From Thermogemmatispora sp. (GTDB taxonomy: Bacteria > Chloroflexota > Ktedonobacteria > Ktedonobacterales > Ktedonobacteraceae): a DNA stretch of 33,846 nucleotides. The stretch covers positions 1 to 33,846 of the forward strand of contig NZ_JADGIA010000031.1 in NCBI RefSeq assembly GCF_019683635.1, read 5' to 3'. A program made the translations under genes and the position numbers. The notes under the pieces were generated by a model. The model was given only the letters and a program-made list of their open reading frames with translations, was not told where the DNA came from and did not search any database. Positions within the stretch are counted from its first letter, which is position 1, and every line of letters begins with the position of its first letter. Of this stretch, positions 3,034 through 30,155 are shown one piece after another.

Positions 3034-3144
3034 GCACAATGTGGACCGTACGATGTATCGATCTATTGCCATGCTGAACCAAATGTCGCGGGGCTTTGTT
3101 GACTTTTCTGGCCTCTCCCTCTTCCCAGAGAATCCCGAGTATGT

Positions 3145-3150
3145 TACAAT
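3145..3150 (+). promoter_or_regulatory. extended -10 promoter element for the tRNA gene
   Basis: TGTTACAAT matches an extended -10 (TGn plus TACAAT) and ends 11 nt before the first base of the mature tRNA, so transcription would start about 5 nt upstream of the tRNA. The region 17 nt upstream (TTCCCA) is a poor -35. Confidence 0.45.
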
Positions 3151-3199
3151 AGTGGTCGCAAGGGCCCATAGCTCAGCGGTTAGAGCAGCCGGCTCATAA

Positions 3200-3872
3200 G
3201 TGCGCCGCTGTGCTCTACCTGTCTCTGCTGCGCAGTGCAGCACCACTGGGACCGTTGTGGTTAAAGCCTGGTCTGACCTGATCCCGAAAGGGTTAGGGGA
3301 CAGTAGCATGGCCAGAAAAGTACGGCTCGGGGGAAACTGCTTACCCCGCTCCGTGCAGCGAGGCCGTATATGGTGAGGAGGAACTTCCGAACCCGAGATG
3401 TGCCCGCTCAACCACCCGTGCGATGGCAGGATTGCGCACGTCGCCCGATTTGACGACCGTGGTTATGAGGGTCGTCAATGGTCCCATCGGGCTGGCGGCT
3501 GGTAGCCCGGCACATCGTAAGGGCACCTACGTACGGACCGAGGCAGGTAGGGAACTGCGGGATCACCTTCCAGGATACGGACGGGTCGCCTCTCTGGCAC
3601 CAACTCTGCCACTGGCATCGCCGTGTCCTCTGGTGACGGAGTGCCCATAGTACTCAAACGATCGGGGTAACGCCCGATACACGGGGAAGGGGCACAGGGC
3701 GCTGCTTCCTGCCCTCCGGCTCGACAGCGCCTGGAGAGCCGTGTGCGTCGAAAGGCGCACGCACGGTTCGGGAAGAGATGACCTTGCTCAGCAGCCTGGC
3801 CTTCCGGCAATCAGCGCTTGCTCGCCTGATCGCTTCCAGGCCAGGCAGAGGCTGGGGAGTCGTCGGCTTCAC
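3200..3872 (+). mobile_element. ORF-less group II intron inside the tRNA anticodon arm
   Basis: The 673-nt insert begins GTGCG (group II 5' consensus GUGYG) and ends CTTCAC, matching the AY 3' end. A canonical domain V sits at 3736-3769. A 7-bp hairpin (3451-3457 with 3471-3477) presents TTATGAG in its loop at 3463-3469, the exact complement of CTCATAA just before the 5' splice site. This is a perfect EBS1-IBS1 pairing. The two G residues before it can pair with the first two bases of the 3' exon. Domain VI is a long hairpin (about 3773-3868) with the strong inner stem GCCTGGCCT/AGGCCAGGC. No reverse transcriptase/maturase is encoded in the intron or elsewhere in the window, so splicing must be autocatalytic or helped in trans. 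I first considered a group I intron; domain V and the end sequences rule it out. Confidence 0.93.
3736..3769 (+). ncRNA. group II intron domain V catalytic hairpin
   Basis: The 34-nt hairpin begins GAGCCG and ends CGGTTC, with a GAAA tetraloop at 3750-3753. It has eight lower base pairs including the AGC catalytic triad at 3737-3739, a two-nucleotide bulge on the 3' strand and six upper pairs. Length, triad, tetraloop and bulge all match the canonical domain V. Confidence 0.93.
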
Positions 3873-4062
3873 CCGGTTGGTCCCTGGTTCGAATCCAGGT
3901 GGGCCCACCTTCACCCTTGCTCGCTCGTCTCCTTGTCCAGTCCCGGCAGCTGGCTGTCATCCAGTGGTTGGCCAGCCGCTCTCTCCCTCTACTGCCAGCT
4001 TGACTGACCCGCCCCGTTCAGATCGTGAGGAGGGGCCTCCCTTGTTAATAAGCCCTTTTCTG

Positions 4063-5769: not shown

Positions 5770-6924
5770 TCAGGTGGCCAGACTGCGCAGCTTCTCAACG
5801 ATGCCCGGCAGGACGGTGAGGACGGTGTCGATGTCTTCTTCGCTGTTGTCTTTGCCAAGGGTCAGGCGCAGGCTACCGCGCGCCCACTCGGGCGGCAGGC
5901 CAAGCGCGACGAGGACATGCGAGGGTTCAACCGAGCCAGAGGTGCAGGCCGAGCCGGTCGAGGCGGCAATGTTGAGCAGGTCAAGGTTGAGCAGGATCGA
6001 TTCACCTTCGACTCCTTCGAAGCAGAAGCTGGCGTTGTTGGCCAGGCGCTGCGTCGGATGGCCGGTCAGGCGACTGCGTGGGATGCGGCTCAGGATGCCC
6101 TCGATCAGGCGATCGCGCATGGTTCGCAGCCGCGGCTGGACCTGCTCCAGCTCCTCGTAGGCCAGGCGCAAAGCTGTCGCTGCTCCTACGATGCCGGCCA
6201 CGTTTTCGGTCCCAGCTCGCCGCCCGCGCTCCTGTGAGCCTCCTTGCAGCTGCGGCAGGAGTCGGACGCCCTGGCGCACGTAGAGAATGCCAACGCCCTT
6301 CGGCCCATAGAATTTGTGAGCCGAGAGCGAGAGCAGGTCGGCATTGAGCGCCTTGACGTCGAGTGGTAAGGCCCCGCCCGCCTGAACGGCATCAATGTGG
6401 AAGGGAACTTTACGCTGCCGACAGATGCGCCCAATCTCTTCAACCGGCTCGATGGTCCCGATTTCGTTGTTGGCGTACATGATGGAGACGAGGACGGTCT
6501 CAGCGGTGATGGCTCGCTCAACCGCCTCGGGGTCAATCAGTCCGTGTTCGTCAACTGGTAGATAGGTGACGTTGAAGCCGAAACGCTCCAGATAGTGACA
6601 GGTGTGCAGGACGGCATGATGCTCGATGGACGAGGTGATGATGTGCTGACCTTTGTTGCGCGCGGCCAGGGCCACACCCTTGATGGCCAGATTGTCGCTC
6701 TCGGAGCCACAGCCGGTAAACACGATTTCGGTGGGCCGGCAGTTGAGAATGGCAGCGATCTCTTCACGCGCCCTGTCAATGGCTTGCATGGCCCGCCGCC
6801 CCAGGGTGTAGATACTGCTGGCATTGCCATAGTCGCTGGTGAGATAGGGCAGCATGGCCTCCAGCACCCGCGGATCAAGGGCGGTCGTGGCCGCATGGTC
6901 AAGATAGATGAGTCGCTCTGGCAT
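5770..6924 (-). CDS. iscS: cysteine desulfurase, NifS/IscS family
   Basis: This PLP enzyme takes sulfur from L-cysteine, giving alanine and an enzyme persulfide used for Fe-S clusters and thiolation. The 384 residues start [14 protein letters not shown], the classic NifS/IscS opening. [17 protein letters not shown] holds the PLP lysine, and [15 protein letters not shown] holds the persulfide-forming cysteine on a long mobile loop, as in group I enzymes. No iscU or Rrf2 regulator lies next to it. It stands alone between an aminotransferase and a divergent acetyltransferase, so nifS would be an equally fair name. The start ATG at 6924 has only a weak ribosome-binding site. An inverted repeat TTAACTTT/AAAGTTAA lies in the upstream leader (6935-7000). 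Confidence 0.93.
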
Positions 6925-25567: not shown

Positions 25568-26611
25568 ATGTCTGCAGGGACCTGGAGCGAATTTGAGTTA
25601 ATTGCCCGCCTGACAGCCGGCTTGCCCTCGGCTGAGGAGGTCGTGGTTGGCATTGGGGATGACTGCGCCGTCCTCGATACTGGCGGTCCACGGCTCTTGC
25701 TGCTGACCTGTGACAGCCAGGTCGAAGGGGTACATTTTACGCTGCGCACTTCTTCACCGCAGGAGATCGGGCGGAAGGCGTTGGCCATCAACCTCAGCGA
25801 TATTGCGGCGATGGGCGGCGAGCCGCGCTACGCCCTGGTCTCTCTACATATTCCGCGTCGTTGCCCGCTGGAGGTCCTGGAAGGAATCTACACCGGCCTG
25901 CGCCAGGAAGCGGCAGCCGCCCAGACGCTGATCGTTGGCGGCAACGTCAGCGGCACCGGGACAGCGGAGACGCTGGCGATCGATATTACCTTACTTGGAG
26001 AGAGCGAGCGCGGGCGGGTGCTGACGCGCGCCGGCGCTCGCGTTGGTGATACCATTTTCGTGACCGGTTGTCCAGGTGACTCGGCGGCTGGCCTGCATTC
26101 GCTGCTCTATCCAGACCATCCTTATCCTCCAACGGCCTGTGAGCGGCTGCGCGCCATCCATCGTGTGCCGCGACCACGCCTGGCCGAGGGACGCCTGTTG
26201 AGCCAGCTCGGTCCGCAGATTGTGACGGCGCTCATCGATGTGAGCGATGGTCTGAGCGGCGACCTGGGCCATATCTGTGAGCGCAGCGGCGTGGGAGCCT
26301 GCATCGAGGTGGCTCGTTTGCCCCTCTCCGCGGAGCTGCAAGCTCTGGCCGCGACCGTGGGGCGCGACCCACTGGCCTGGGTGCTGCACGGTGGCGAGGA
26401 TTATGAGCTGCTCTTTACGGTCGCTCCGGGCTACGAAGAGACCGTACAAGCGCGCTTCGCCGCGGCGGGGGCGGCTCCCATCACCCGCATTGGACAGATT
26501 ACAGAGGCAGCGAGCGGCCTTCGTCTGCGCTGGCCAGATGGACGCGAGGAGCCGCTATCAGTACAGAGCTGGGATCATTTCACGACGCCCGGCCAGGCCA
26601 GGTCTAGCTAG
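25568..26611 (+). CDS. thiL: thiamine-monophosphate kinase
   Basis: ThiL phosphorylates thiamine monophosphate to the active diphosphate, the last step of the pathway. The 347 residues show IGDDCAVLD (ATP/Mg), VEGVHF, ALAINLSDIAAMGGEPRYALVSL, GGNVSGT (usually GGD, here Asn), VTGCPGDSAAGL, DVSDGLSGDL and GGEDYELLFTV, the standard order. The ATG at 25568 is preceded by GGAGGT at 12 nt, slightly far. An in-frame upstream start at 25460 would add 36 residues without similarity. It is divergent from ctaG and convergent with thiE, sharing the palindrome CTAG as both stop codons. It lies outside the riboswitch-controlled operon. Confidence 0.93.
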   Translation: MSAGTWSEFELIARLTAGLPSAEEVVVGIGDDCAVLDTGGPRLLLLTCDSQVEGVHFTLRTSSPQEIGRKALAINLSDIAAMGGEPRYALVSLHIPRRCPLEVLEGIYTGLRQEAAAAQTLIVGGNVSGTGTAETLAIDITLLGESERGRVLTRAGARVGDTIFVTGCPGDSAAGLHSLLYPDHPYPPTACERLRAIHRVPRPRLAEGRLLSQLGPQIVTALIDVSDGLSGDLGHICERSGVGACIEVARLPLSAELQALAATVGRDPLAWVLHGGEDYELLFTVAPGYEETVQARFAAAGAAPITRIGQITEAASGLRLRWPDGREEPLSVQSWDHFTTPGQARSS

Positions 26612-27306
26612 GTCGCTTCCCCGGTCAGACCAGCCGCGGCCCGCGCCGCCCTGACCTGCTCGGCAATAGCTCGCGCAGCCGCGGTGATGTCCTCGGCGTT
26701 GACAACGGAGGTGATCACGGCGACACCGCAGGCGCCCGCCGCAATCACCTCCGGCGTATTGGCCGCCGTGATCCCGCCAATCGCTACCAGCGGCACTTGA
26801 TAGCGGGCGCTGATAGCTTGCAGGAGCGCGGGACCGGTAGCCGGTCCAGCATCGGCCTTGCCGCGCGTCGGATAGATCGGGCCGACGCCCAGGTAGTCCG
26901 CCCCTTCGGCTACCGCTTGCTCGGCTTCCGCGAGGTTACCCGCCGAGACTCCAAGGATGCGCCCGGGGCCTAGGAGCTTGCGAGCCAGCGCCACGGGCAT
27001 GTCATCCTGCCCCACGTGAGCGCCGTCGGCCTCGATCGCCAGGGCCACATCAACACGGTCGTTGACAATCAGCAAGGCACCGTGACGACGAGTCAGCTCG
27101 CGCAGCGCCAGGCCCTCCTCAACCAGGGTGCGTGTTGTCGCCTGCTTATCGCGCAGTTGGATAATCGTGGCCCCACCAGCCAGGGCCGCCGCGGCCACCG
27201 TCTGCATATCGCGCCCTCGCGACCACTCGCGGTCGGTGAGGACATGCAACGCCAGGCGCGGAATCAACTCTTCGCGCTTCCAGCCACAGGGCAATAGCTC
27301 CGACAT
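26608..27306 (-). CDS. thiE: thiamine-phosphate synthase
   Basis: ThiE couples hydroxymethylpyrimidine diphosphate with hydroxyethylthiazole phosphate to make thiamine monophosphate. The 232-residue TIM-barrel protein has LHVLTDREWS, GGATIIQLRDKQ, LLIVNDRVDVALAIEADGAHVGQDD, LGVSAGN, GADYLGVGPIYPTRGKAD and VAIGGI, all diagnostic. It is the last gene of the tenA-thiD-thiM-thiE operon. Its ATG overlaps the thiM stop as TGATG, so translation is coupled. The first 15 residues ([15 protein letters not shown]) are a short extension. Its stop codon shares CTAG with the convergent thiL. Confidence 0.95.
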   Translation of the reverse strand: MSELLPCGWKREELIPRLALHVLTDREWSRGRDMQTVAAAALAGGATIIQLRDKQATTRTLVEEGLALRELTRRHGALLIVNDRVDVALAIEADGAHVGQDDMPVALARKLLGPGRILGVSAGNLAEAEQAVAEGADYLGVGPIYPTRGKADAGPATGPALLQAISARYQVPLVAIGGITAANTPEVIAAGACGVAVITSVVNAEDITAAARAIAEQVRAARAAAGLTGEAT

Positions 27307-28145
27307 CAGGCGATCACTCTCACTTTCTGTCCACGACGGATGGTCTCCTCGTCAAGAGCGGCGACGGCATCGATCAGATGGGAGCGGAAGGTACCGGGGC
27401 CAGCCGCTTTCTGGGCAGCCAGCTCTCCGGCCAGACCGAGGGCCACGAGAGCAGCGATGCTGGCCTTCCAGGCATCCGGCTCCACGGCGAGGAAGGCCGC
27501 CACCAGGGTGGTAGCCATGCAGCCGCTGCCGGTAATGCTGGCCAGCAAGGGATGACCATTCTCGACATAGGCCAGGCGCCGGCCATCGCTGATGACGTCG
27601 CGCGCTCCAGTGATCGTTACACAACAGCCGAACTGGCGCGCCGCCCGCTGGGCAACGCTTTCCCGCTCCTCGGACAAAGAGATCGACTCGACGCCGCGCG
27701 TTTCGCCCTCCACACCCAGCAAGGCCCCGATTTCGGAGGCGTTGCCGCGCAGAGCCGTGATGTGCAGCTCCCGCAGCAGGCGTAGAGCGCTCTCGGTGCG
27801 CAGGCGTGTGGCTCCGGCGCCGACAGGATCGAGGACAATGGGGATCTGCCTCTCATTCGCTCGTCGGCCAGCCAGGAGCATGGCCTCGATCTGCTCGGGC
27901 ACAAGGGTTCCGATGTTGAGCACCAGGGCGCCGGCGAGACTGACCATCTCCTCCACTTCCTCGCGCGCATGGGCCATGACGGGCAAGGCCCCGATGGCGA
28001 GCGTCACGTTGGCAGTGTCGTTCATCACTACCATGTTGGTGATGTGATGCACCAGGGGCTTGCGAGCACGAATAACTCCTACCAGGGGCGCCAGTCCTTC
28101 TAGCTTTCCCGAGCTGGCATTTTCGTTTTCTTGTTGCTGATTCAT
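27306..28145 (-). CDS. thiM: hydroxyethylthiazole kinase
   Basis: ThiM phosphorylates the thiazole alcohol, a salvage step. In 279 residues the ribokinase-like fold is clear: [63 protein letters not shown] and [18 protein letters not shown] with the anion-hole GSGC cysteine. The ATG at 28145 overlaps the thiD stop as ATGA and is chosen over an upstream in-frame start at 28175 that would sit inside thiD. The first 20 residues are Gln/Glu/Asn-rich and poorly conserved. Confidence 0.94.
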
Positions 28146-28963
28146 GGGGTCTCTGCCTCTTTGCTCTGCTTCCATTGCCAGAAGTGTTCGGTGGGTCCGT
28201 GACCGTGACCGAGACCCGGTGCATGCCGAATAGCTTCGGTCACATAGCGCTTGGCCTCGGCTACAGCCTCAGCAACGGAGAGGCCGCGCGCCAGGAAGGC
28301 GGCAATGGCTGCCGAGAAGGTGCAGCCGGTGCCGTGGGTATGACGGGTCTCGATGCGCTCGGCGCGCAATTCGCTGAAGCCGGTTCCATCAAAATAGACA
28401 TCGATCGGGGCATCCAGACGATGCCCACCTTTGACAACGACGTGGCGCGCTCCGAGATCGTGGATAGCCCGGGCCGCCTCGTGCATCTCCTCCAGGGTCT
28501 CAATGTGCCGTCCGGTCAGCATCTCAGCCTCCGGCAGGTTGGGCGTTACCACCTCCGCCAGAGGTAGCAGGACGCCGCGCAGGGCCGCGACCGCCTCGGG
28601 CCGCAGCAGCGGGTCTCCACTTTTGGCGGCCATTACCGGATCAACGACCAGACGCAATTTCCAGCGAGCGACGCTGCGGGCGACGGCTTCAATAATGGGG
28701 GCTGTAGCAAGCATGCCAGTCTTGGCGGCGTCGGCTCCGATGTCTTCAAGCACAGCGTCGATTTGGGCCTCCACCAGCTCCGGGGGCAGTTCGAAAGCGG
28801 CCCGCACCCCCAGGGTGTTCTGGGCTGTGATGGCCGTGATGGCTGAGAGTCCATAGACCTCCAGGGCGGCGAAGGTTTTGAGATCGGCCTGAATGCCGGC
28901 CCCAGCGGACGAATCCGAGCCGGCGATGGTCAACGCCCGAGGGTGTCGCTGCTCCTCGCTCAT
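28142..28963 (-). CDS. thiD: hydroxymethylpyrimidine/phosphomethylpyrimidine kinase
   Basis: ThiD phosphorylates hydroxymethylpyrimidine twice to the diphosphate used by ThiE. The 273 residues show [79 protein letters not shown] and the C-terminal [19 protein letters not shown] with the catalytic cysteine loop. GAGGAAG lies just before the ATG. It follows tenA after 69 nt. No thiC or thiazole synthesis genes are present here, so this operon appears geared to salvage and the final joining steps. Confidence 0.95.
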
Positions 28964-29032
28964 ATTCTTCCTCGCTCTTCTTTTGTCTCGATGGCATTCC
29001 TAGCCTCTGGCAGTATTCCCTGTCACTGGCGC

Positions 29033-29737
29033 TCAGGCCGGCCATTGCTCTTGTCGCCAGGCCATTTCCCAAAAGAGCCATTCATAGCAGGTGCTGATGC
29101 GAAAGATCTCGTAGAGACGGGCAATGGCTTCTGCCGAGAGGCGCTCAGCGTGCAGATCCAGACGCTCGCGGAGCCAGCGCCCCACGGCATCGAATTCGGG
29201 ATCGGCATAGGTGCGCAGCCAATCGGCATAGGGATGATCAGGGGCTGGCGGTCTGTTGCCCGTGAGATGCGTGCCCACCTCGGCGTAGATCCAGGCACAG
29301 GGCAGCATGGAGGTGATGATCTCGGGAAGAGAGCCAGTGGTGGCGATCGCCAGAAGATGGCGGGTATAGGCGTAGTTGGTGGGCGCCATCGGCGTGGCGG
29401 CCATTTGCTCGGGCGTCAGCCCAAAGCGCTCGCCATAACGGCGGTGGAGATCCTGCTCAACCACGAGGGTGTTGAGCAACAGACGGCCAAATTGCTCGAT
29501 CTCCGCGTGATCTTCGCTGCGCGTCGCGGCATAGGCGAAGCACTTCGCAAGGACGTCCAGAAAGAGGGCATCTTGCCGAATGTAGAATTCGAAATTGGCG
29601 CGCGGCAGCGAGCCGTCGCCCAGGGCGACAACAAAGGGATGTTGCAGCTGGCGCTGCCATAGGGACAGGACACTCTCGCGCAGACGGAAGGAGAGATTGC
29701 CATTTGTAGATGCGGCGGACATTTCAGCGGCAGACAT
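29033..29737 (-). CDS. tenA: TenA/thiaminase II family aminopyrimidine aminohydrolase
   Basis: TenA hydrolyses aminopyrimidines from degraded thiamine so that ThiD can reuse them. The 234-residue all-helical protein has RQDALFLDVLAKCFAYAATR, TNYAYTRHLL, MLPCAWIYAEVG with the active-site cysteine, and STCYEWLFWEMAW with the catalytic glutamate near the C-terminus. GGAGGT lies 9 nt before the ATG at 29737; Met6 is a lesser alternative. It is the first gene of the thi operon, directly behind the TPP riboswitch, so it is expected to be expressed when thiamine diphosphate is scarce. Confidence 0.93.
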   Translation of the reverse strand: MSAAEMSAASTNGNLSFRLRESVLSLWQRQLQHPFVVALGDGSLPRANFEFYIRQDALFLDVLAKCFAYAATRSEDHAEIEQFGRLLLNTLVVEQDLHRRYGERFGLTPEQMAATPMAPTNYAYTRHLLAIATTGSLPEIITSMLPCAWIYAEVGTHLTGNRPPAPDHPYADWLRTYADPEFDAVGRWLRERLDLHAERLSAEAIARLYEIFRISTCYEWLFWEMAWRQEQWPA

Positions 29738-29824: not shown

Positions 29825-29863
29825 AGAAAACTATGACAGCTGCTGACGAGGCCACAGTTTTCT
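29825..29863 (-). terminator. candidate expression-platform terminator of the TPP riboswitch
   Basis: On the minus strand AGAAAACT pairs with AGTTTTCT eight for eight around a 23-nt loop, 10 nt after the aptamer. The 3' arm runs into TTTTCTTCTT. This is a plausible regulated terminator, with an imperfect U tract. Confidence 0.45.
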
Positions 29864-29872
29864 CAATCACCC

Positions 29873-29970
29873 GCGTTCCCTTCGCTGGCATTACCCAGAT
29901 CAGGTTGGTTCAGGGTCCCCCACACACTCCGGTGGTGTTCTCAGCCTGGCTGCACCAAGCTCCCCTAGCG
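29873..29970 (-). ncRNA. TPP riboswitch (THI element)
   Basis: On the minus strand the conserved THI-box pieces appear in order: GCTAGGGGAGC at the 5' side, GGCTGAGA, then ACCCTGAACC, CCTGATCTGGGTAATGCC and AGCGAAGGGAA. The pyrimidine-sensing CTGAGA and the pyrophosphate-side GATCTGGGTAATGCCAGCG are near-exact matches. A short GC stem fills the variable P3 position (about 29905-29936). It controls the tenA-thiD-thiM-thiE operon directly downstream, turning it down when thiamine diphosphate binds. Confidence 0.95.
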
Positions 29971-30155
29971 AGTACAGCTGCGCCACAGGACGGGACGATC
30001 GATCGCTCCAGACGTGGTTGCAGCGCCCGTTTCTCCTGCCTGCGCTCCACTCCTGCCGGCTAGTCGCGGTCAACCAGGTCCTTTGCCTGTGGAGGTGGAG
30101 GCAGGTGAAAGAGATAATCGCCGCAGCGCCGATCATCCTGACGCTTCCATCGCCA

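Follow-up and report, generated by a model that had tools for sequence, protein, structure and literature searches.

Group II introns interrupt several plastid tRNA genes, trnK with its MatK maturase being one example, and trnI, trnA, trnV and trnG carry such introns as well. Like the intron described here, the plastid tRNA introns sit in essential tRNA genes and are stably inherited (PMC4424553, extract). The florideophyte trnMe intron also interrupts a tRNA with a CAU anticodon, although it is inserted after the third anticodon position and encodes a reverse transcriptase (RT)/maturase (PMC3607583, extract). Unlike the plastid introns, which are aided by maturases or nuclear factors, the Thermogemmatispora introns described below are bacterial, follow nucleotide 38 of the tRNA, come from genomes in which no RVT_1 domain was found, and contain an exon-binding site (EBS1) that pairs with the anticodon loop over its full length.

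In the literature, group II introns of bacteria figure as mobile elements residing mostly outside housekeeping genes, with exceptions, for example in cyanobacteria, and their ORF-less forms as rare and short-lived (PMC4424553, extract). An ORF-less intron whose host genome lacks any intron-encoded protein has been reported from Clostridium tetani (C.te.I1), the first such according to its authors (PMC3919590, extract); however, it lies in a surface-layer protein gene and takes part in alternative splicing, whereas the introns reported here lie in tRNAs, three to a genome and across a genus. The introns documented in bacterial tRNA-Leu(UAA), tRNA-fMet and the tRNA-Ile of Azoarcus are likewise located in the anticodon loop and self-splicing (PMC4033280, PMC4390854 and PMC3984707, extracts), but they are group I introns, a ribozyme class other than that of the intron analysed here. 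Extracts of two of these sources (PMC4033280 and PMC4390854) mention both group I and group II introns for the tRNAs of bacteria, but only in a general way, and the 2022 prokaryotic survey PMC8919778, in its available text, brings up tRNA solely in connection with introns of archaea and eukaryotes and in its references. In the literature covered, which lies mostly outside subscription journals, no account of an individual bacterial tRNA interrupted by a group II intron was found. The splitting of a tRNA by a group II intron, known from chloroplasts, is apparently undescribed in bacteria.

Anatomy of the split tRNA gene

The window, which is the whole 33,846-nucleotide stretch of Thermogemmatispora sp. 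DNA analysed here, is contig C252 of an assembly (G000) of 5.41 Mb in 361 contigs that is 93% complete. Over the entire window ARAGORN in ordinary mode called zero tRNA, and its intron mode yielded a single tRNA(cat), which spans 3162-3909 and holds an intron of 673 nt. The interruption (3200-3872) separates position 38 of the loop from position 39 of the stem, immediately after the last nucleotide of the anticodon loop CTCATAA, and the exon halves, when joined, form a full cloverleaf. In the 3' exon the discriminator A is nucleotide 3907, followed by CC. A chance origin of this arrangement is excluded, because it recurs in all six genomes of the genus, one of which (G003) is a single contig. 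Upstream of the tRNA, a single promoter-like site was found where 0.3 would be expected, and this count is no argument for function.

Several lines of evidence identify the insert as a group II intron. The Rfam model RF00029 matched 3734-3872 with 51.3 bits (E 2e-07), above its gathering score of 40, and the fold of the intron was equalled in stability by none of 20 shuffles (z -4.39). Domain V is 34 nt long in all 28 ORF-less tRNA introns compared, and the intron of the window contains zero reading frames of RT size. A group I intron was rejected, as no group I family reached its gathering threshold in the Rfam scan of the window, and an archaeal or eukaryotic bulge-helix-bulge intron appears unlikely from the length of the insert and its group II core. 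The original prediction, made from the letters of the window, had described an insert at 3200-3872 with GTGCG and AC ends, whose removal restores the cloverleaf of a tRNA with anticodon CAU split at 38/39; these boundaries proved exact to the base in the sequence and in the ARAGORN call, and the loop CTCATAA bears out the anticodon and the split point. Its description of the insert as an ORF-less group II intron with a canonical 34-nt domain V agrees with the results above, as does the outcome of the covariance-model search it had proposed for the window. The coordinates of the features are collected in Table 1.

Table 1. Positions in the window of the split tRNA gene, its intron and the elements recognised in them.
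Feature	Position	Strand	Basis
Promoter-like site TTCCCA-17-TACAAT, weak, 11 bases 5' of the tRNA	3122..3150	+	1 found, 0.3 expected
5' exon: acceptor 5' strand, D arm, anticodon stem 5' strand, whole loop CTCATAA (anticodon CAU)	3162..3199	+	ARAGORN, joined cloverleaf
IBS1, the complete anticodon loop CTCATAA	3193..3199	+	7/7 Watson-Crick pairs with EBS1
Group II intron, ORF-less, 673 nt, GTGCG...AC	3200..3872	+	RF00029, 28-intron alignment, fold
EBS1 hairpin, 9-bp stem 3450-3458/3470-3478	3450..3478	+	28-intron alignment
Delta nucleotide G, pairing with delta' C3873 (first 3' exon nucleotide)	3462..3462	+	Alignment
EBS1 (TTATGAG), within the loop of a domain I hairpin	3463..3469	+	Complementarity, exon-blind hairpin search
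Conserved core common to the family introns, domain III region by position	3631..3699	+	Search (query 470-538), alignment
Domain V, 34 nt, AGC triad	3736..3769	+	RF00029; 392/392 cells paired over 28 introns
Enlarged domain VI, with G at 3866 (-7) in place of the expected branch-point A	3770..3872	+	28-intron alignment
3' exon: anticodon stem 3' strand, variable loop, T arm, acceptor 3' strand	3873..3909	+	ARAGORN, joined cloverleaf

Apart from the intron, the Rfam scan of the window returned only a TPP riboswitch, on the minus strand at 29859-29976, with a score (54.3) exactly equal to its gathering score; it precedes genes at 26608-29737 that, judged by eye, are thiamine-like.

The 28 ORF-less tRNA introns aligned for covariation comprise 27 from genomes of the family and one from a metagenome-assembled genome (MAG) labelled Acidobacteria (L161). 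Across this set IBS1 and EBS1 pair in 195 of 196 cells, a count that is partly circular, EBS1 having first been picked by complementarity. Of the 252 cells of the EBS1 stem, 250 are paired, and eight of its nine base pairs show two-sided changes. The sequence of EBS1 tracks the anticodon, reading TTATGAG in Ile2, TTTGGAG in Trp, TTAGGAG in Lys(CUU), TTAGAAG in Lys(UUU) and TTAGGAT in Arg(CCU) introns, with one G-U pair in each of the Lys types and one mismatch in Arg. A search blind to the exons, in which a stem of 8 or more pairs had to carry an 11-nt loop, recovered the EBS1 hairpin in 25 of the 28 introns, pairing with their own anticodon loop at 7/7 positions in 24 and at 6/7 in one; the Ile2 introns of G005 and G020 and the Trp intron of G016 lie outside this geometry. 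Two assignments were made by judgement: in the Arg intron of G016 the 7-mer of the hairpin was chosen where another outscored it by count, and the split tRNA of G020, misread as Ala by ARAGORN, was assigned to Ile2 from its exons. The delta-delta' pair is present in 22 introns, the six Trp introns of the genus being unpaired (A/A). None of 500 shuffles, which ignore relatedness, reached the observed values for IBS1-EBS1, stem, delta and domain V. A search for an EBS2-IBS2 pairing found no site at a consistent place.

Taken together, this covariation supports a functional role for the intron structure. Since a delta nucleotide that adjoins EBS1 and pairs with the first base of the 3' exon is a criterion of group IIA, the delta-delta' pair, in combination with the GUGCGCC start, suggests subclass IIA. 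As a separate observation, EBS1 of the Lys(CUU) introns of the genus (L003 and relatives; TTAGGAG at intron nt about 290-305), which forms one G-U pair with its own loop, is an exact match to the loop CTCCTAA of the intact tRNA-Arg(CCU) in the genome (L013), and may possibly preserve a trace of an earlier host gene.

Maturases and the splicing route

Using RF00029, 18 group II introns were found in the six Thermogemmatispora genomes, three in each, with 150 of 206 first-look candidates scored in the genome of the window and 140 of 196-262 in each of the other five (G001-G005). All 18 lie at 38/39 of tRNA genes, namely those for Ile2(CAU), Trp(CCA) and Lys(CUU), and the exon pairs are identical over the six genomes for Ile2 and Lys and occur in two versions for Trp. 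None of the six genomes yielded an RVT_1 domain with all candidates scored, and 20 of the 29 genomes of the family have one. GIIM likewise gave no match over its cut-off in the genus, two weak matches (E 0.19 and 0.48) being seen in G004; in G026, 44 of 58 GIIM matches exceeded the cut-off. With neither a frame of RT size in the intron nor RVT_1 in the genome, the intron lacks the intron-encoded RT/maturase that characterises a mobile retroelement. These two negatives would miss a MatK-like protein devoid of RVT_1, because the maturase domain of the RT-bearing relatives described below is Intron_maturas2 (PF01348) and not GIIM over its cut-off. Judged from these genome sequences, the three tRNA introns of the genus are likely to splice without an RT-type maturase.

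We regard it as probable that the ORF-less intron of the window self-splices from the tRNA-Ile2 precursor without an RT-type maturase and so yields what is likely the sole AUA-reading tRNA. Transcription would give a precursor RNA holding the intron, in which the 7-bp EBS1-IBS1 helix across the anticodon loop, together with delta-delta' at nucleotide 39, would fix both splice sites. Water or another nucleophile would then attack after A38, and this first step would probably be a hydrolysis that releases a linear intron and no lariat, because the branch A is replaced by G. The exons would be ligated and the tRNA would fold, TilS acting on C34 only once splicing has taken place. General RNA-binding proteins of the host or the heat of growth may assist, and the introns themselves probably derive from mobile RT-bearing introns of the same family that homed to tRNA anticodon loops.

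A somewhat less than even chance is given to a different course, in which the bare ribozyme would be inactive in the cell and splicing would proceed only with a dedicated host protein, be it a MatK-like maturase without an RT domain, an RNA chaperone or another splicing factor, as in chloroplast tRNA introns. Group II introns are said to require their intron-encoded protein under physiological conditions (PMC4424553, extract), the lost branch A and the unlocated EBS2 point to reduced autonomy, and PF01348, the maturase domain of the family, was outside the RVT_1 and GIIM searches of the genus. Against this stand the complete lack of RVT_1 and of GIIM over its cut-off in the six genomes and the retention of the core helices, and growth heat combined with a high GC content could stabilise the folding of the RNA.

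Position -7 of domain VI is normally the bulged branch-point A, and its loss impairs branching in a canonical intron. All 18 introns of the genus have G at this position, as opposed to A in eight of the ten others, the two exceptions being T in the Ile2 intron of G015 and G in the Trp intron of G016. At position -8, A is present in all six Trp introns of the genus, and G or T in the Ile2 and Lys introns; the intron of the window, with G at both -7 and -8, has no bulged A at either of the places expected of a branching intron. Because neither -7 nor -8 is an A, hydrolytic, lariat-free splicing is likely for at least the Ile2 and Lys introns, as far as can be read from their sequences. The trnV intron of barley chloroplasts reportedly splices in this way. 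Branching from another adenosine, for instance the A at -8 of the Trp introns, seems unlikely to us; such an A is shared by all six Trp introns of the genus and shifts of the branch site are conceivable, but the Ile2 and Lys introns of the genus offer no A at either position.

Fungal mitochondrial rRNA genes contain group II introns that have lost the branch motif and EBS2 and are spliced upstream of GUGYG (PMC4424553, extract), and extra 5' nucleotides are also found in C.te.I1 (PMC4424553, extract). Among the 28 introns analysed here, six, none of them a Thermogemmatispora intron, carry additional nucleotides that separate the loop from the GUGCG-like start, and 20 are without A at -7. The fungal introns belong to IIB1 and in the majority carry LAGLIDADG ORFs; moreover, the two traits are uncoupled in our set, as the genus lost the A without gaining a 5' insert whereas four of the six introns with an insert keep the A.

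Identity of the tRNA and the need for it

Although labelled Met by ARAGORN, the split tRNA is most likely tRNA-Ile2(CAU). Besides the split gene, the same genome contains three contiguous CAU tRNAs, of which two resemble initiator tRNAs and one an elongator Met tRNA, and with these Met genes present elsewhere a Met identity was dropped. The body of the split tRNA is of a type that we take to be that expected for tRNA-Ile2, unlike the Met tRNAs. A tRNA-Ile2 reads AUA once TilS has converted C34 to lysidine; TilS is present in the genome, being encoded in all three genomes searched, and AUA makes up eight of the 337 Ile codons in the 17 ORFs of the window taken as genes.

A pattern for contiguous CAU, CCA and CUU tRNAs, which variant T-loop copies would escape, found no contiguous copy of Ile2, Trp(CCA) or Lys(CUU) in G000, G001, G002, G003 and G005, and recovered the three Met tRNAs in each of these; in G004 it gave no match of any kind and is uninformative. 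In the genome of the window, ARAGORN typed 44 of 46 tRNA matches and none was Ile2, Trp(CCA) or Lys(CUU); the single-contig G003 also has 46 tRNA matches. One further locus (L075, G000:C271, about 6241-6306) is a weak tRNA match of 33.8 bits that ARAGORN did not call. Apart from the product of the split gene, the cell likely has no tRNA for AUA codons. For Trp no other isoacceptor can replace the tRNA. With an intact tRNA-Lys(UUU) in the genome of the window (L011), the cell may be able to do without tRNA-Lys(CUU).

The original prediction had called for a search of related genomes, and this turned up intron-containing versions in all six genomes of the genus and intron-less Ile2 genes in other relatives. 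Two observations that it named as speaking against it did not materialise: no published series of identical bacterial introns was found in the literature, and no second intact copy of the tRNA in the genome of the window or in four of its five relatives within the genus, the fifth being the uninformative G004.

Could the introns be mobile elements that inserted recently and are still on the move, instead of being fixed in the tRNAs? RT-bearing relatives occupy the same spot in tRNAs, and Ile2 introns fall at more than one place in the tree presented below; nevertheless, 18 of 18 positions are common to the six genomes, RVT_1 is absent and each intron type groups within the genus, so that we hold this to be very improbable. 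That the three split genes are dead remnants, with other tRNAs used in their place, is scarcely credible: the assembly of G000 is incomplete, but the single-contig G003 has no contiguous copy by pattern, the Ile2 and Lys exons are identical in all six genomes, with Trp in two versions, and are folded by ARAGORN, covariation is strong and tRNA-Trp is irreplaceable.

If fixed, functional introns are indeed what these genes contain, the translation of a whole genus would depend on three ORF-less group II introns, an organelle-like state in free-living bacteria, with essential tRNA genes holding introns that only splice. The system is tractable, comprising cultured thermophiles, introns of 575 to 754 nt and three natural pairs of EBS1 and anticodon, and it bears on how selfish introns turn obligatory, on whether hydrolytic splicing suffices in vivo and on what may substitute for a maturase.

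RT-bearing relatives and the history of the family

A scan of GTDB contigs returned 26 stretches, of which 12 are from Thermogemmatispora, one from a Ktedonobacteraceae MAG, one from the Acidobacteria-labelled MAG and six from Proteobacteria; the remaining six (L158, L159, L160, L162, L168 and L177) contain no tRNA and were set aside as chance. In all six Proteobacteria the 5' half of a tRNA-Ile2 enters a group II intron after position 38. Domain V and the 3' half of the tRNA are present in P. fragi (L164), Massilia (L169), Marinobacter (L170) and Psychrobacter (L173), the split cloverleaf being called by ARAGORN in the latter two and its halves read by eye in the former two; in Cupriavidus (L166) and Burkholderia (L171) the 3' end of the intron lies beyond the stretch read. 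A frame with RVT_1 and Intron_maturas2 occurs in five of the six, the exception being Burkholderia. Four of these introns (P. fragi, Massilia, Cupriavidus and Burkholderia) contain in addition a complete CAU tRNA, which in P. fragi starts at intron nt 440; the Marinobacter intron has a decayed copy and that of Psychrobacter none. These spare tRNAs, typed as Met by ARAGORN, were assigned to Ile2 in this analysis.

Similar arrangements exist within the family. In G022 (L116) a tRNA-Arg(CCU) is split by an intron that contains a complete tRNA-Arg(CCU) and a 626-codon frame matching TIGR04416 with 263 bits, under its cut-off of 300. In G009 (L238, G009:C1:9608900-9614500) a tRNA-Val(CAC) is split by an intron with a frame bearing RVT_1 and Intron_maturas2, a complete tRNA-Val(CAC) and two copies of domains V-VI. 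The two copies flank the spare tRNA-Val, one on each side, and each is followed by CGAA. The tRNA-Val intron looks from its sequence as if a unit had been duplicated.

Genomic islands and phages that target tRNA genes restore the tRNA gene on integration. Several of the RT-bearing introns resemble them in that they bring a spare tRNA with the same anticodon as the one invaded, and such spares would rescue the host after insertion; islands, however, leave a complete and a partial tRNA at their ends (PMC9897764, extract), whereas here the spare lies inside the intron that splits the loop. If this is what the spare tRNAs do, they would represent a new means for a retroelement to render its own insertion harmless. 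We give a nearly even chance to a broader proposal, namely that one group II family parasitises tRNA anticodon loops by means of an EBS1 spanning the whole loop, that its mobile forms are harmless through their own spare tRNA, and that the three Thermogemmatispora introns have been tamed into maturase-free hydrolytic splicers on which the cell's only Ile2, Trp and Lys(CUU) tRNAs depend.

The ORF-less introns extend beyond the genus. Nine more were found in tRNAs of seven other genomes of the family, interrupting Ile2 in G007, G011, G013, G015, G020 and G023, Lys(UUU) in G013, and Trp and Arg(CCU) in G016; other relatives, such as G010, G014, G017, G018 and G022, have an uninterrupted tRNA-Ile2. 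The RF00029 scan of 21 of the 29 family genomes gave 82 matches (three in the genome of the window and 79 elsewhere), of which 27 are ORF-less introns in split tRNAs, one is the RT-bearing intron of G022 and 54 are without a tRNA that ARAGORN recognises as split; six of these 54 were read at their ends and showed no tRNA half.

In a tree with long branches and limited backbone support, built on 318 columns that include EBS1, the intron types of the genus each form a group (Ile2 99/99, Lys 100/100, Trp 91/98). The Ile2 introns of the genus fall with the Lys(UUU) intron of G013 (99/96), and six other Ile2 introns form a separate group (97/90), to which the Val intron of G009, on a long branch, also belongs; in G020 the Ile2 intron is placed with the Trp introns (87/93). 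With the Ile2 introns scattered in this manner, moderate evidence weighs against the idea that the whole family goes back to one ancestral insertion in tRNA-Ile2, which is not favoured, and the sequences suggest that the introns may have hopped between tRNAs with a change of EBS1.

A strict pattern, consisting of a tRNA 5' half followed by GTGYGC and therefore missing introns with 5' inserts or other loop types, found 25 matches in 14 of 400 Chloroflexota genomes, against nine matches for a reversed-pattern control. Split tRNAs account for 21 of the 25, in ten genomes of the family, and the other four (in G331, G243, G033 and at 10159513 in G009) appear chance-like from their letters. The same pattern matched one of the 369 genomes of P. 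fragi's class, that of P. fragi itself.

Two minor observations concern the spread of the family. The tRNA-Ile2 intron of the Acidobacteria-labelled contig (MNJR01000081.1) resembles those of Ktedonobacteraceae, which would reflect either a mislabelled bin or horizontal transfer. In L047, L056 and L123, presumed to come from K. racemifer and relatives, several copies of introns of the same family lie in genes that by eye are transposase-like.
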